The position numbers and the translations under genes are program-made. Shown here one piece after another: positions 36,797 to 55,393 of a stretch of DNA of 64,000 nucleotides (the stretch's first letter is position 1; every line of letters begins with the position of its first letter). The notes beneath the pieces are model-generated. The model ran no database searches. It was not told the origin of the DNA and saw only the letters and a program-made list of their open reading frames with translations. The stretch lies in the NCBI RefSeq assembly GCF_004340785.1, contig NZ_SLXS01000003.1:95689-159688 (forward strand). The letters run 5' to 3'. The stretch comes from Tumebacillus sp. BK434. Lineage in GTDB: Bacteria; Bacillota; Bacilli; Tumebacillales; Tumebacillaceae.

Positions 36797-38074
36797 TTAC
36801 AGCACAATTCCGCGGTGTCCCAATGCTTGGAGCAGATACTGGTGATAGTTCTCCAACTTCCGAAAAGCTTCCTGAAAATCACCTTTGCTGCTCAAATGTC
36901 GGCACATGACCAGCACCGCCTCTTCCAACTCGGCAGCCATCCCGTGCTGTTCAAATATCTTGACCGCATCATCAAGATGCGTTTGGCCCTTCCTGTCATC
37001 ATGCTTGTAAAAAGAGACGTCTGCCAGCACACGATGGACTTTTCCCATCGCCGGGTCGGTGTCGGGAAGCGCTTTCCGTGCTTGCTCAGCATATGTCCGA
37101 GCCTCGTCAAACGATTGATGCTCTCTGCAGATCAGAGCGATGTCGGCGTACACTTTTCCTGCTCCCGCTCTGTCTGCTTCTCGCTCACACCGTTGCGCCA
37201 GGCTCAACAACTGTTGCACAGCACTCTTCCAATCTCCCGACCCGCGAAGCAGCATGATCGAGCGGTGCTGCAGCTCTTGCCTGATCTTTTCATTCGATTG
37301 CTCTTCCAATAATACGGCCGCCTTTGAGGCGTAGTCTTCGGCCTGCTCATACTTCTTTTGACGATCAAACATCTCCGCCAGCCGGAGATAGGTCTTGGCC
37401 CGTTCTTCCCTGCTGCCATGATCCAATTGCAAAGCCTGCTCGTAGTATCTGACCGCTTCTCCCGCCTTGCCGACCTTTCCGAGCAGCGCCGCCAACTGCA
37501 TGAGAAACTTCACATGCAGATCTGCGTCGAGCTGCTCTGCCTTCAGTACTTCTTCCAAGGCACGCTTCGTCAGGAAGAGGGCGATCGGAAGCTCACTCTT
37601 CAACTCCGCGGCCTTTCCTAATAGCAGCAAGACCTGCGGAAGCATCGCCGCACTCTGCTCGTGGTTCGCCAACTGATTCAAGTTGCTTTCCGCTTCCGTC
37701 ACGTTGCCCACCTCAAGCTGACAGCGGGCCAATTCCAGCAACACGTTTCCCTTGGGAATTTTGAATGGAGCATATTCCACAAGACTTTCTAACAATGGAA
37801 TCGCAGTTCCAAACTCATTCGCCCGCACCATGCCCAATGCCAACTTGTATTTGCTCGAATATTCCAGATCGAGGTTCACGCCTTTTAACAGCTGCTCAAG
37901 CGGCACCTCGAGACGCGCTGCAATCTCTGCCAATACCTTATACGACGGGCGAGCCCGGTCTGATTCGATTTGCGACACCATACTTGGCGTGATCAGACCT
38001 TCCGCAAGTTCGATCTGTGTCATGCCTTTTTGATTGCGAAACTTTCGTACTCGTTGACCTAACGTTCGGTCCAT
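36797..38074 (-). CDS. HTH-TPR regulator (RRNPP-like), orphan
   Basis: A 425-residue protein (MDRTLGQRVRKFRNQKGMTQ). It has an XRE-type HTH (about 5-60, LAEGLITPSMVSQIESDRARP) and then about eight to nine TPR-like helical repeats to the C-terminus. This is the architecture of peptide-sensing RRNPP regulators. I found no pre-peptide gene in the roughly 100 bases downstream. GGGGG is about ten bases before the ATG at 38074. It is divergent from the second HTH-TPR gene, which does have a candidate peptide. Confidence 0.82.
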   Translation of the reverse strand: MDRTLGQRVRKFRNQKGMTQIELAEGLITPSMVSQIESDRARPSYKVLAEIAARLEVPLEQLLKGVNLDLEYSSKYKLALGMVRANEFGTAIPLLESLVEYAPFKIPKGNVLLELARCQLEVGNVTEAESNLNQLANHEQSAAMLPQVLLLLGKAAELKSELPIALFLTKRALEEVLKAEQLDADLHVKFLMQLAALLGKVGKAGEAVRYYEQALQLDHGSREERAKTYLRLAEMFDRQKKYEQAEDYASKAAVLLEEQSNEKIRQELQHRSIMLLRGSGDWKSAVQQLLSLAQRCEREADRAGAGKVYADIALICREHQSFDEARTYAEQARKALPDTDPAMGKVHRVLADVSFYKHDDRKGQTHLDDAVKIFEQHGMAAELEEAVLVMCRHLSSKGDFQEAFRKLENYHQYLLQALGHRGIVL

Positions 38075-38238
38075 AAACACGCCCCCTACTTCTTGCACAG
38101 TGGTTGTGTAATTATTGTAACCGCAACATTAAGAACTTCTATGTTTTATAAATAAATTGTACCACCAAACAAGAAACAGGCTAATATTAACAGAATAATC
38201 TGACAACGTTTCGGGTAATTGGTTTTTCTCGTGAAACA

Positions 38239-38267
38239 TTTACAGAAGGCTCTTGTTTACTTATAAT
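38239..38267 (+). promoter_or_regulatory. Sigma-A promoter of HTH-TPR/peptide operon
   Basis: TTTACA, a 17-base spacer and a perfect TATAAT lie about 60 bases before the HTH-TPR start. Confidence 0.75.
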
Positions 38268-38325
38268 GATAACGATTTCTCTACTTGAAGAATAACTGCA
38301 ACTCTACTTGAGGTGGTTATGTTCG

Positions 38326-39597
38326 ATGAGTAATTTTGAACCATACACGGAGGGTCTCACACTCTCGCAAACTACATATCGAAGAATCTCTGAAATCATG
38401 GAAGAGCGCGGAAAAGCCTATTCTCAACAAGCGATTGCGATGCGGATCAACATCAGCACAGATACGCTTCGCATGAAATTACGAGGCAAAAGAAAGATCT
38501 ACTCCTTCGAACTGGAACGCATCGCCGAGGCCCTGCATGTTTCTGTAGAACGGCTGATGCAGAGCGATACGAGCGAATTGGAGCAAGAATTGGACCTGAT
38601 CTTCTCCGCTTTACAAGATCCCGAACAATCAAAATCTGTCGCCCAAAAGCTCTTTTGGTCAGAAGCGACAAGCGATGCTTTTGCGGAGAACCAATATGCA
38701 GACCTGATGAAACAAAGGGCGCTGACCATTGCGGAACAGCTCACCCAATGTGCACTCGGAGTGTCAGAAAAAAGCAAGTCTTTTAACCAGTTAGGACGAG
38801 CCTATTATTACCTGCACCGTTACCAGGAAGCACACGATGCCTGGCTGCTCGCCTATGGACATGCCAAAAAGCTTGCCGACAAAACCATATCTGAGAAAGA
38901 GCCGCTTTTCAACGTCATTACGAACCTGATGATCTCGTACTCCAATCGGAAAGAGTACTCTGAATTGTCTAAAATCCTGAATGACATCGAGTCTTTTTTC
39001 ATATCTGATCCCAAACGAAAAGGGATCATCAACTACTCACTGGCTAAAATCTCCGAACAGAAAGGAGAGACAGAAAAAGCAAGCCAGTACTACTATGCTT
39101 CCCTGAATGCCTATCGCGAGACAGAAGCACCGTTTTTTATCTCGAAAGCTTTGCATAATACGGCATGCTTTGAGTTCAGGTGCGGGAACTTTGCCACATC
39201 CAAGGACCTGTTCGAGCAAGCACTTCCCGATTTGTCCGACCATACCTTTCATCGATTCGTCTGTACGAAAGAATACTGCAAAACACTGATCAGTCTCGGT
39301 GAAAACAAACACGCTGCGGAACTGATTGCCTCTTCGCTCCGCAAGATTGGCTCCAAAGAGATGCAGCATCTACATGACCAATTCACGTTGATGTTATCGC
39401 TGGCCAACGACAACCCCGAACATGCTGAACAGTTGCTTGACCGCGAATGTGATCCGGGAATCAAACAATTAGCTTATCGTCTGTTAATGGATCTCTATGA
39501 CAAACGGGGCGATTCATATTCGCTAATGAAATACTATAGAATGGCAAAAGATATTGGTTTTTCGAGTCACAATATACTCTTCGAGGAGGATTTGTAA
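38326..39597 (+). CDS. HTH-TPR peptide-sensing regulator (RRNPP family)
   Basis: A 423-residue protein (MSNFEPYTEGLTLSQTTYRR). It has an N-terminal XRE-like HTH (about 15-80, SQQAIAMRINISTDTLRMKL) and then a helical TPR-type repeat domain (about 140-420, e.g. SFNQLGRAYYYLHRYQEAHD). This is the build of RRNPP receptors (PlcR, NprR, Rgg), which bind imported oligopeptides. GAGGTGG lies nine bases before the ATG at 38326. The stop overlaps by one base the start of a 38-residue exported pre-peptide, the classical arrangement of a receptor and its signal gene. Confidence 0.85.
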   Translation: MSNFEPYTEGLTLSQTTYRRISEIMEERGKAYSQQAIAMRINISTDTLRMKLRGKRKIYSFELERIAEALHVSVERLMQSDTSELEQELDLIFSALQDPEQSKSVAQKLFWSEATSDAFAENQYADLMKQRALTIAEQLTQCALGVSEKSKSFNQLGRAYYYLHRYQEAHDAWLLAYGHAKKLADKTISEKEPLFNVITNLMISYSNRKEYSELSKILNDIESFFISDPKRKGIINYSLAKISEQKGETEKASQYYYASLNAYRETEAPFFISKALHNTACFEFRCGNFATSKDLFEQALPDLSDHTFHRFVCTKEYCKTLISLGENKHAAELIASSLRKIGSKEMQHLHDQFTLMLSLANDNPEHAEQLLDRECDPGIKQLAYRLLMDLYDKRGDSYSLMKYYRMAKDIGFSSHNILFEEDL

Positions 39598-39713
39598 TGA
39601 AAAAAGTGTTGCTTGGCAGTCTGCTTTTCGTTGTCATCATCGCTCTCTCCTTCACAGGCACCAGTACAATAACAGCTCAAGACCTTCCGCTTGACCCTGT
39701 CGGCATTCATTAA
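39597..39713 (+). CDS. Phr-like signalling pre-peptide
   Basis: A 38-residue ORF with its ATG overlapping the regulator stop (TAATG); GGAGG is seven bases upstream. It has an MKK start, a hydrophobic core at about residues 4-20 (VLLGSLLFVVIIALSF), a polar stretch TGTSTITA and the short C-terminus QDLPLDPVGIH. This is the layout of exported quorum-sensing precursors of the Phr/PapR/NprX type: secretion signal, cleavage after an Ala, and a small C-terminal peptide as signal. The mature sequence is inferred to lie within the last 5-11 residues. A strong terminator follows. Confidence 0.75.
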   Translation: MKKVLLGSLLFVVIIALSFTGTSTITAQDLPLDPVGIH

Positions 39714-39728
39714 TTCGTTGATATAGGT

Positions 39729-39962
39729 ATGCGACCTATGCTCGAACGAACATCGGGCTTAGGTCGTTTCTTTTTCTGGAGACGTTCTGTCCCTGCCTTT
39801 CGAACCAGTTACCCGGGCGCTCTTTTGACGGAAGGACAGGAAATCGTCTATTGGAACACCAGAATCGAAGATCAAACCGTGCCTGTCTATTTGACAGGAG
39901 AGCGCATCACCCTCTGGCAGCGGCAGTTTCAAGACTTACTCAAGTATAAATTAACGGAGTAG
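39729..39962 (+). CDS. Doubtful small ORF of unknown function
   Basis: A possible 77-residue frame that begins inside the terminator of the peptide operon and lacks a good ribosome site. The part from about residue 33 (GALLTEGQEIVYWNTRIEDQ) has protein-like composition, so a shorter start (TTG near 39828) or a gene remnant is possible. I do not recognise it. Confidence 0.3.
   Translation: MRPMLERTSGLGRFFFWRRSVPAFRTSYPGALLTEGQEIVYWNTRIEDQTVPVYLTGERITLWQRQFQDLLKYKLTE
39731..39775 (+). terminator. Terminator of the HTH-TPR/peptide operon
   Basis: CGACCTATGCTCGA pairs with TCGGGCTTAGGTCG (with wobble) and is followed by TTTCTTTTT. An upstream ATAGGT can also pair with the ACCTAT of the left arm. 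Confidence 0.75.
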
Positions 39963-41546: not shown

Positions 41547-41737
41547 TTAAGCCTGCTTCTGCAACTCACTCTCATCATACACCGCAACCCAGCCGTCCTT
41601 GCTCTCGAAAATACGGATCGCTTTCACCTTGCGCAGTTCCGTCAAGGTGAACCAGTGGCGGGTGTTGGTCGGCACCGAGATCAGGTCGCCCGGGTACAGG
41701 AACACGTCGTAGTACGTGTCATCGTTCGGCCCTTTCA
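41547..41737 (-). pseudogene. mtnD: mtnD 3' fragment 1 (displaced end)
   Basis: The last about 63 codons of an acireductone dioxygenase, nearly identical to the end of intact mtnD (54,851) and of fragment 2 (44,007). It contains the His of TRHWF but lacks the HxH-x3-E metal ligands, so it is not functional. The reading frame is intact to the normal stop and terminator. Homology stops at 41737, where it is fused to a remnant of a helicase-like gene. It is probably the original chromosomal 3' end left behind by integration. Confidence 0.88.
41556..41594. repeat. 39-bp identical core of mtnD repeats, copy 1 (likely attachment site)
   Basis: A 39-base stretch beginning CTTCTGCAACTCACTCTC is identical at 41556-41594, 44010-44048 and 54860-54898. 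It is the most conserved part of the three mtnD ends, as expected for a recombination core. Confidence 0.65.
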
Positions 41738-43959: not shown

Positions 43960-44006
43960 GTGACTTGCCACTATAGAGTGAAGCTCTAACCATTAGCGCA
44001 TTACCC

Positions 44007-44244
44007 TTACTTCTGCAACTCACTCTCATCATACACCGCAACCCAGCCGTCCTTGCTCTCGAAAATACGGATCGCTTTCACCTTGCGCAGGTCGGTCAGC
44101 GTGAACCAGTGGCGGGTGTTGGTCGGGACGGAGATCAGGTCGCCCGGGTATAGGAACACGTCATAGTACGTGTCATCGTTCGGCCCTTTCAGGGTGAAGA
44201 TCGCTTCGCCGTCGACGATAAAACGCACTTCGTCTTCGGTGTGG
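44007..44244 (-). pseudogene. mtnD: mtnD 3' fragment 2 (displaced end)
   Basis: The last about 73-79 codons of acireductone dioxygenase, in frame to a normal stop. It starts in the segment DEVRFIVDGEAIFTLKG and lacks the metal ligands HxH. Homology with intact mtnD ends abruptly at 44244. It matches fragment 1 slightly better than the intact gene in its distal part. It marks the junction between two integrated elements. Confidence 0.88.
44010..44048. repeat. 39-bp identical core, copy 2 (junction of inner and outer elements)
   Basis: Identical to 41556-41594 and 54860-54898. It would be the attachment site shared by both elements. Confidence 0.65.
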
Positions 44245-54817: not shown

Positions 54818-54850
54818 AGAAAAGCTCTCTACGCGCCCCACAAACAAGCA

Positions 54851-55393
54851 CTACGCCTGCTTCTGCAACTCACTCTCATCATACACCGCAACCCAGCCAT
54901 CTTTGCTTTCAAAGATACGGATCGCCTTCACCTTGCCCAGCTCGGTCAGCGTGAACCAGTGACGGGTATTGGTCGGCACGGAGATCAGGTCGCCCGGGTA
55001 TAGGAACACGTCATAGTACGTGTCATCGTTCGGCCCTTTCAGGGTGAAGATCGCTTCGCCGTCGACGATAAAACGCACTTCGTCTTCGGTGTGGTGGTGC
55101 TCATCTTTAAACTTGGTGAGCAGGTCTTCCAGATTCGGGGTCTGGTCGGACAGTACCACGATGTCGGAAGACTTGTAGCCGCGCTTCTCAGACAGGGCAT
55201 CGATCTCCGGGCGGAAGGTTTTCAGAATCGCTTCTTGCAGCTCCGGAGTAACTTGATAGTCTTCTTTCAATTGCTGCGGGAGCTTGGAAATATCCCAGTG
55301 CTCATAGACGATGCCTTGGGTCTTGAGGTACTCGGACACTTGCTCCAGCCCTTCGATGCGTTCGTTGGTTTCGACAAAACGGATGGACGGCAT
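54851..55393 (-). CDS. mtnD: Acireductone dioxygenase
   Basis: It oxidises acireductone to 2-keto-4-methylthiobutyrate and formate, the last ring of methionine salvage before transamination. The 180-residue cupin has metal ligands His99, His101, Glu105 (HHHTEDE) and His145 (TRHWF). AGGAGG precedes the ATG at 55393. Its C-terminal about 80 residues are repeated at two places in the island. The present C-terminus was therefore probably supplied by the mobile element, with its own terminator, leaving the enzyme intact. Confidence 0.95.
   Translation of the reverse strand: MPSIRFVETNERIEGLEQVSEYLKTQGIVYEHWDISKLPQQLKEDYQVTPELQEAILKTFRPEIDALSEKRGYKSSDIVVLSDQTPNLEDLLTKFKDEHHHTEDEVRFIVDGEAIFTLKGPNDDTYYDVFLYPGDLISVPTNTRHWFTLTELGKVKAIRIFESKDGWVAVYDESELQKQA
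54860..54898. repeat. 39-bp identical core, copy 3 (within intact mtnD)
   Basis: Identical to 41556-41594 and 44010-44048. It is the proposed attachment site at the end of intact mtnD, beside the integrase. Confidence 0.65.

Follow-up and report, generated by a model that had tools for sequence, protein, structure and literature searches.

In the Paenibacillaceae, the AloR–AloP systems comprise many paralogous HTH–TPR receptors per genome, most of which are encoded directly before a secreted pre-peptide of 32–50 aa; orphans exist, and one target adjoins its pair (Voichek 2020, PMC7425212). The NprR–NprX systems also join a receptor made of an HTH and many TPRs to a downstream pre-peptide gene, and multi-copy precursors are common amongst them (PMC9765709). 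PlcR–PapR consists of a transcription-factor receptor followed by a pre-peptide gene, with PlcR assigned to the five-TPR clan; in Rap–Phr the same receptor-then-peptide order is found with a receptor that has no DNA-binding HTH, and NprR and Rap are placed in the nine-TPR clan (PMC12700828). A survey of complete genomes using RRNPP_detector reported candidates in the Alicyclobacillaceae, the NCBI family of Tumebacillus (Bernard 2023, PMC10075063), so relatives of the locus described here may already be listed there; the main text of that paper names no Tumebacillus, and the module with a second regulator described below was not found in it. A literature search returned no paper naming Tumebacillus together with RRNPP, nor a description of this three-gene module.

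The locus lies in a window of 64,000 nucleotides from Tumebacillus sp. BK434 (contig NZ_SLXS01000003.1), the whole stretch of DNA that was analysed, and coordinates without a contig name are positions in it. It holds a receptor gene (R1), a pre-peptide gene (P) and a second regulator gene (R2), with the following features:

38326..39597, + strand: R1, a gene for an HTH plus TPR superhelix protein of 423 aa, a predicted cytosolic peptide receptor and DNA-binding regulator
39597..39713, + strand: P, a 38-aa pre-peptide ORF, translationally coupled to R1 through TAATG
39675..39698, + strand: AQDLPLDP, the conserved putative signal core of P (family consensus A-[EQDS]-x-x-P-x-x-P)
39678..39710, + strand: QDLPLDPVGIH, the predicted C-terminal fragment of P, were signal peptidase to cut after A27
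39583..39589, + strand: GAGGAGG, the RBS of P, within the R1 3' end and 7 nt ahead of the ATG
38239..38267, + strand: TTTACA-N17-TATAAT, the promoter of the R1–P operon (11/12 consensus matches)
38310..38316, + strand: GAGGTGG, the RBS of R1, read from the sequence
39732..39775, + strand: the R1–P terminator, a stem-loop (39732–39766) with a T-rich tail
36797..38074, − strand: R2, an HTH_3 plus nine-TPR regulator of 425 aa, divergent from R1, without its own peptide gene and with the conserved C-terminus RGIVL
38075..38325, no strand: the 251-bp intergenic region shared by R2 and R1, a likely control region

In the window sequence the stop codon TAA of R1 overlaps the ATG start of P, which translates as MKKVLLGSLLFVVIIALSFTGTSTITAQDLPLDPVGIH, with a basic N-terminus followed by a hydrophobic stretch. 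The signal sequence of P was judged from hydrophobicity and by inspection, and A27|Q28 is a plausible signal-peptidase site, at which cleavage would leave QDLPLDPVGIH. An earlier, sequence-only reading had proposed a quorum-sensing pair here from the TAATG junction, a perfect RBS, a secretion signal, a terminator and a promoter of the pair's own; that description proved accurate, and the short C-terminus that it had singled out, QDLPLDPVGIH, matches what a cut after A27 would leave. The terminator has a 14-nt stem (39732–39745 with 39753–39766, 86% paired) followed by TTTCTTTTT, with a folding z of −2.8; the stem-loop was not among the calls of a simple terminator scan. A 77-codon ORF (39729–39962, + strand), for which NCBIfam gave no match, overlaps this terminator.

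A Pfam search of the R1 protein found HTH_26 above its cut-off (23.2 versus 22) and TPR models below cut-off only. The AF2 model, made from a 61-row alignment (pLDDT 93.6, pTM 0.88), comprises an HTH (about residues 15–78) and then a TPR superhelix (about residues 121–408) of about eight helix pairs, the architecture of RRNPP(A) receptors, which are cytosolic TPR proteins that usually bear an N-terminal HTH. Amongst solved structures the model matched RapI (Z 21.5, rmsd 4.5, 310 aligned) and NprR (Z 20.6, rmsd 5.3, 306 aligned), with eukaryotic LGN TPR structures scoring slightly above both, so that the fold by itself is no proof of a pheromone receptor. The R1 family profile matched RapJ (3e-10), Rap3T (5e-9) and NprR (8e-8), and LGN and designed TPRs at better E-values. 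Known RRNPP receptors grip the backbone of their peptide with conserved Asn side chains on the concave side of the TPR superhelix; the R1 family has conserved Asn columns at N154, N200 and N278. The R1 of the window carries an extra ~26–30 residues near positions 100–130 that are absent from its relatives.

R1 relatives occur within the window's own genome, a 4.6-Mb draft, where 6/6 full-length members of the main R1 clade (the window's R1 included) carry at their 3' end a small ORF whose product is hydrophobic at the N-terminus and rich in proline at the C-terminus; ELLPPRPSIIKST, TVPPTPLSIIKTP, TVPPEPAGIIAFQ and TAPPDPKLMITPFD are examples. The R1 profile (A1) matched between 6 and 15 places in each of the seven Tumebacillus-family genomes and, at E≤1e-25, nothing in the other 292 of a sample of 299 genomes of the class; across 398 genomes, the best of the remaining matches reached 4.5e-10. 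A scan of genome contigs with the R1 sequence alone gave no match, and neither did tblastn of R1 against plasmid and phage collections, which thus hold no sign of R1–P on known mobile elements.

Across the seven Tumebacillus-family genomes, a candidate pre-peptide ORF adjoins 57/69 R1 ORFs, and in 33 of the 57 its start lies at −4 or −1 nt relative to the stop of the receptor gene; many of these comparisons are between paralogues inside one genome, and the counts are not independent events. The sequence-only reading had staked its proposal on the small ORF being kept beside homologous regulators, and it is: in 56/69 relatives the pre-peptide ORF starts between −4 and +16 nt from the receptor stop, with a varying C-terminus, and the retention of a small, adjacent Sec-type pre-peptide gene with the receptor is a further RRNPP(A) trait. 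Under the same criteria, about 2/160 ordinary ORFs had such a small ORF (Fisher p ~1e-38), neither with the core motif; the ratio is approximate because the background ORFs were chosen by a simple rule and not by a gene finder. The receptor and pre-peptide pair that had been proposed is therefore supported, though not as a lone pair, for it is one of at least six in its own genome and belongs to a genus-wide family. R1 ORFs without a pre-peptide fall mainly into a tandem-cluster clade ending PYDKYL or PLDKNF. Three loci (L154 at G000:C1:217500–226500 in the window's genome, and also L097 and L098) are tandem arrays of R1-like receptors without pre-peptides, followed by an R2 gene; arrays of this type end in PYDKYL/PLDKNF, and one copy is broken by stops. 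It is possible that such receptors eavesdrop or have been repurposed.

In 55/56 coupled ORFs the core A-[EQDS...]-x-x-P-x-x-P is present, exactly or nearly so. Seven precursors (L010, L078, L085, L087, L088, L089 and L092) contain it from twice to about five times, and there the core is repeated while the residues behind it vary. As it is the core and not the end residues that is repeated, the receptor probably reads ~7–9 residues centred on P-x-x-P, which argues for an R1 ligand centred on AQDLPLDP rather than consisting strictly of the last residues. The sequence-only reading had put forward the last 5–11 residues for tests with synthetic peptides; the putative signal is better seen as a conserved core, A-x-x-x-P-x-x-P, with a variable tail, and those residues may not all matter. 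Purifying selection acts on the peptide ORFs (pooled pN 0.29 versus pS 0.61, 16 comparisons).

The C-terminal peptide also follows its receptor. Receptor identity correlates with C-terminal peptide similarity (r 0.59, 52 pairs) and less with signal-sequence similarity (r 0.36), and over 37 modules the correlation with the C-terminal peptide gave a Mantel r of 0.67 (p 0.0005, labels permuted and kinship ignored), unchanged when R2 was controlled for. The window pair has no close orthologue, so that its own 38 codons rest on family resemblance and not on direct orthologue comparison: the closest receptor by BLAST is that of L010 (44% identical), whose precursor contains AQDLPPLP, AQDIPPAP and AENQPPNP as cores. 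The L031 receptor, the counterpart of that at L010, is 39% identical to the window's R1 and goes with the core AENLPINP, beside AQDLPLDP in the window. D/N-L before the proline marks the clade of the window, L010 and L031. Similar units occur in another Bacilli family, where distant HTH–TPR receptors (L111, L115, L121 and L125) have multi-copy precursors whose unit AE[KR]IP[QE]PW or ADRVPEPW resembles the Tumebacillus core.

Set against the described systems, R1–P resembles AloR–AloP in its paralogous HTH–TPR receptors with adjacent secreted pre-peptides and in its orphans. It differs in that no Spo0E-like gene lies behind the window pair, whose neighbour is a second HTH–TPR regulator, in its peptide core (P-x-x-P versus SHGRGG for AloP13) and in its distribution, AloR–AloP occurring in the Paenibacillaceae, whereas in the 299 class genomes matches to R1 at E≤1e-25 were confined to the Tumebacillus family. 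P0003, a Brevibacillus plasmid receptor that served as a stand-in for AloR13, gave no convincing match to the R1 profile; it belongs to the related subfamily 08, as assigned from its DPG-type peptide and the published classification (PMC12700828). NprR–NprX shares the HTH plus many-TPR receptor, the downstream pre-peptide and the structural match, but the NprX model reached only 14.9 bits on P (cut-off 33), over residues 1–16 of the signal part, and NprR matched the R1 profile weakly and TPR-wide. PlcR–PapR has the same order of transcription-factor receptor and pre-peptide gene, with five TPRs against the eight or so helix pairs of R1, whereas Rap–Phr, to which RapJ and RapI (the best RRNPP matches in sequence and fold) belong, lacks the DNA-binding domain that R1 has in HTH_26. 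R1–P is not assigned to AloR–AloP, and it is placed outside NprR–NprX, PlcR–PapR and Rap–Phr because each of them fails a tested feature; by architecture and profile matches it most resembles the nine-TPR clan of NprR and Rap (PMC12700828), and the placement is one by resemblance. The logic of PlcR–PapR and NprR–NprX, to which the locus had been likened, is similar, but the NprX-model and five-TPR features are not shared. Judged on the anatomy of the predicted proteins and genes, the R1–P family is a Tumebacillus-specific one of RRNPP type.

The pair is usually accompanied by a second regulator. An R2 homologue lies near 49/69 R1 genes, downstream in 46 and divergent upstream in three; downstream copies mostly begin 220–320 nt after R1, thus just behind P, and the divergent arrangement is found in the window, L010 and L031 only, which form one R1 clade. 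The sequence-only reading named the pair alone; we count the neighbouring R2 as part of the unit. All R1 loci of the window genome have an R2 nearby, and 20/69 R1 genes overall show none. The R2 model of the window has an HTH and nine helix pairs, and its fold matches include RapI (Z 25.7) and NprR (Z 23.2). No secreted ORF accompanies the R2 proteins beside R1, most of which have RGIVL or RGIAL as their last residues; other R2-class genes of the same genome carry secreted peptides, some of them repeated, such as GFIHDAEPLSKAPVI (L139) and IFDPDPL (L141).

In the window's genome (G000), R2-class and other HTH–TPR genes with their own secreted-type 3' small ORFs were noted at L139, L140, L141, L144, L149, L152, L156 and L159, with the repeated units GFIHDAEPLSKAPVI (four copies), IFDPDPL (two) and QYEPGIPM (two), and, R1 pairs included, the peptide systems encoded here may number 14 or more. 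In a genome of the same order (G088), the gene behind the R2-class relative at L123 encodes a precursor in which ASDEHIYN occurs five times. At L162 (G000:C3:447500–452300), the R2 gene that adjoins the L011 pair is split by a stop into 167 + 287 aa and is possibly decaying.

We consider it very probable that R1 and P are a cognate receptor–pheromone pair of RRNPP type. Comparison between relatives shows that the two genes are paired, coupled and conserved, that the peptides share the core and co-vary with R1, and that R2 is adjacent. The steps from secretion through maturation and re-import to receptor binding are inferred, as are the way in which the switch works and its hold over R2. R1 and P would be made from one transcript by coupled translation, and P would leave the cell through Sec and lose its signal sequence to signal peptidase near A27; further trimming may yield a short product with DLPLDP at its centre. 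This peptide would be re-imported by an oligopeptide permease (eight Opp-type peptide-binding proteins are encoded in the own genome) and is predicted to bind the concave face of the R1 TPR superhelix, altering DNA binding by R1. Acting at the 251-bp region between the divergent genes, R1 would regulate the R1–P operon and, most likely, R2; whether R1 controls R2 appears to us evenly poised. A wider reading, to which we give somewhat less than even odds, is that R1–P–R2 is a three-gene module in which R1 and its own pheromone gate a second, peptide-less RRNPP-type regulator, and that R2 genes have been freely exchanged between modules to give a rewirable network with many parallel pheromone channels per cell.

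Peptide similarity follows R1 whatever the R2 (partial r 0.66) and R2 hardly at all once R1 is given (partial r 0.10, p 0.016), which marks R1 as the cognate receptor, and between the sequences of R1 and R2 there is no co-variation (r 0.09). Our preferred reading of R2 is as an output or partner that can be exchanged; the absent co-variation fits a swapped target, but an unrelated neighbour too. The self-contained alternative, in which R1–P regulates itself and distant genes and R2 is a functionally unlinked neighbour, draws on that same figure, on the abundance of R2-class genes (21 matches in the own genome) and on the R1 genes with no R2 nearby; we hold it to be unlikely, as R2-class genes make up only ~0.5% of genes and yet adjoin most R1 genes, including all of those in the own genome. 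In streptococci, Rgg2/Rgg3 pairs are two receptors of one peptide with opposed effects, and by analogy R1 and R2 might both bind P. That R2 has an HTH with nine TPRs, counts RapI and NprR amongst its fold matches and has relatives elsewhere in the genome with secreted peptides of their own means that it could bind peptides, and the small positive partial correlation with the peptide points the same way; this arrangement nonetheless seems improbable given how much more strongly the peptide follows R1, and given that the window's R2 is 70% identical to one beside an R1 that is only 32% identical to the window's and has a different core, AQTSPPDP.

Two further explanations deny that P is a signal. 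A length of 38 aa with one hydrophobic segment would also fit a membrane microprotein or small toxin acting on its producer, with R1 as its regulator, but conservation falls on the C-terminus, which is polar and rich in proline, occurs in two to five copies in some precursors and co-varies with the TPR receptor, and we regard this explanation as very improbable. Short ORFs are common enough for P to be a chance reading frame behind R1, an explanation that is contradicted by the conserved coupling, the RBS, the core motif and purifying selection and to which we attach next to no probability.

In relatives, the interval between P and R2 holds a terminator and inverted repeats. The repeat TGTCA-N9..11-TGACA lies ~40 nt behind the pre-peptide stop in 23/57 relatives, and its perfect form ATGTCA-N9..11-TGACAT is found at only two places in the 4.6-Mb genome (G000:C1:895362 and G000:C2:212801), both behind peptide genes of the family. 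A second repeat, AAACCA...TGGTTT, was found at 13/57 R1–P loci (e.g. L034, L042, L049, L065 and L083), in 12 of the 13 behind the terminator and ahead of R2 where R2 is present; its inner arms change in step between paralogues, and it is a candidate operator or RNA hairpin. Both repeats are candidate control sites. Neither was found at the window pair, perhaps because R2 is divergent there; TGTCA-N-TGACA is missing from the whole window, and a search of the window promoters for an operator showed no strong inverted repeat nearby. An upstream palindrome search yielded only AT-rich, promoter-like words.

As dozens of such pairs are spread over the genus, most of them next to a second regulator, they may represent an unusually large chemical conversation system, with a large and internally diverse receptor–peptide family in a little-studied genus of spore-formers. 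More than 50 natural receptor–peptide pairs, together with multi-copy precursors that mark the core, make a set from which the reading of peptides by TPR pockets could be learned. The conserved R2 raises the testable question of relays between RRNPP proteins, of which the literature search found no description.

Elsewhere in the window, the 3' end of a dioxygenase-like gene is present in three direct copies (91–96% identical), at 41548–41737, 43998–44244 and 54848–55094. They frame two inserted segments, the larger of which contains an IS21-type pair, an ATPase-like gene and two genes resembling integrases, and together these segments look like a tandem integrated island.
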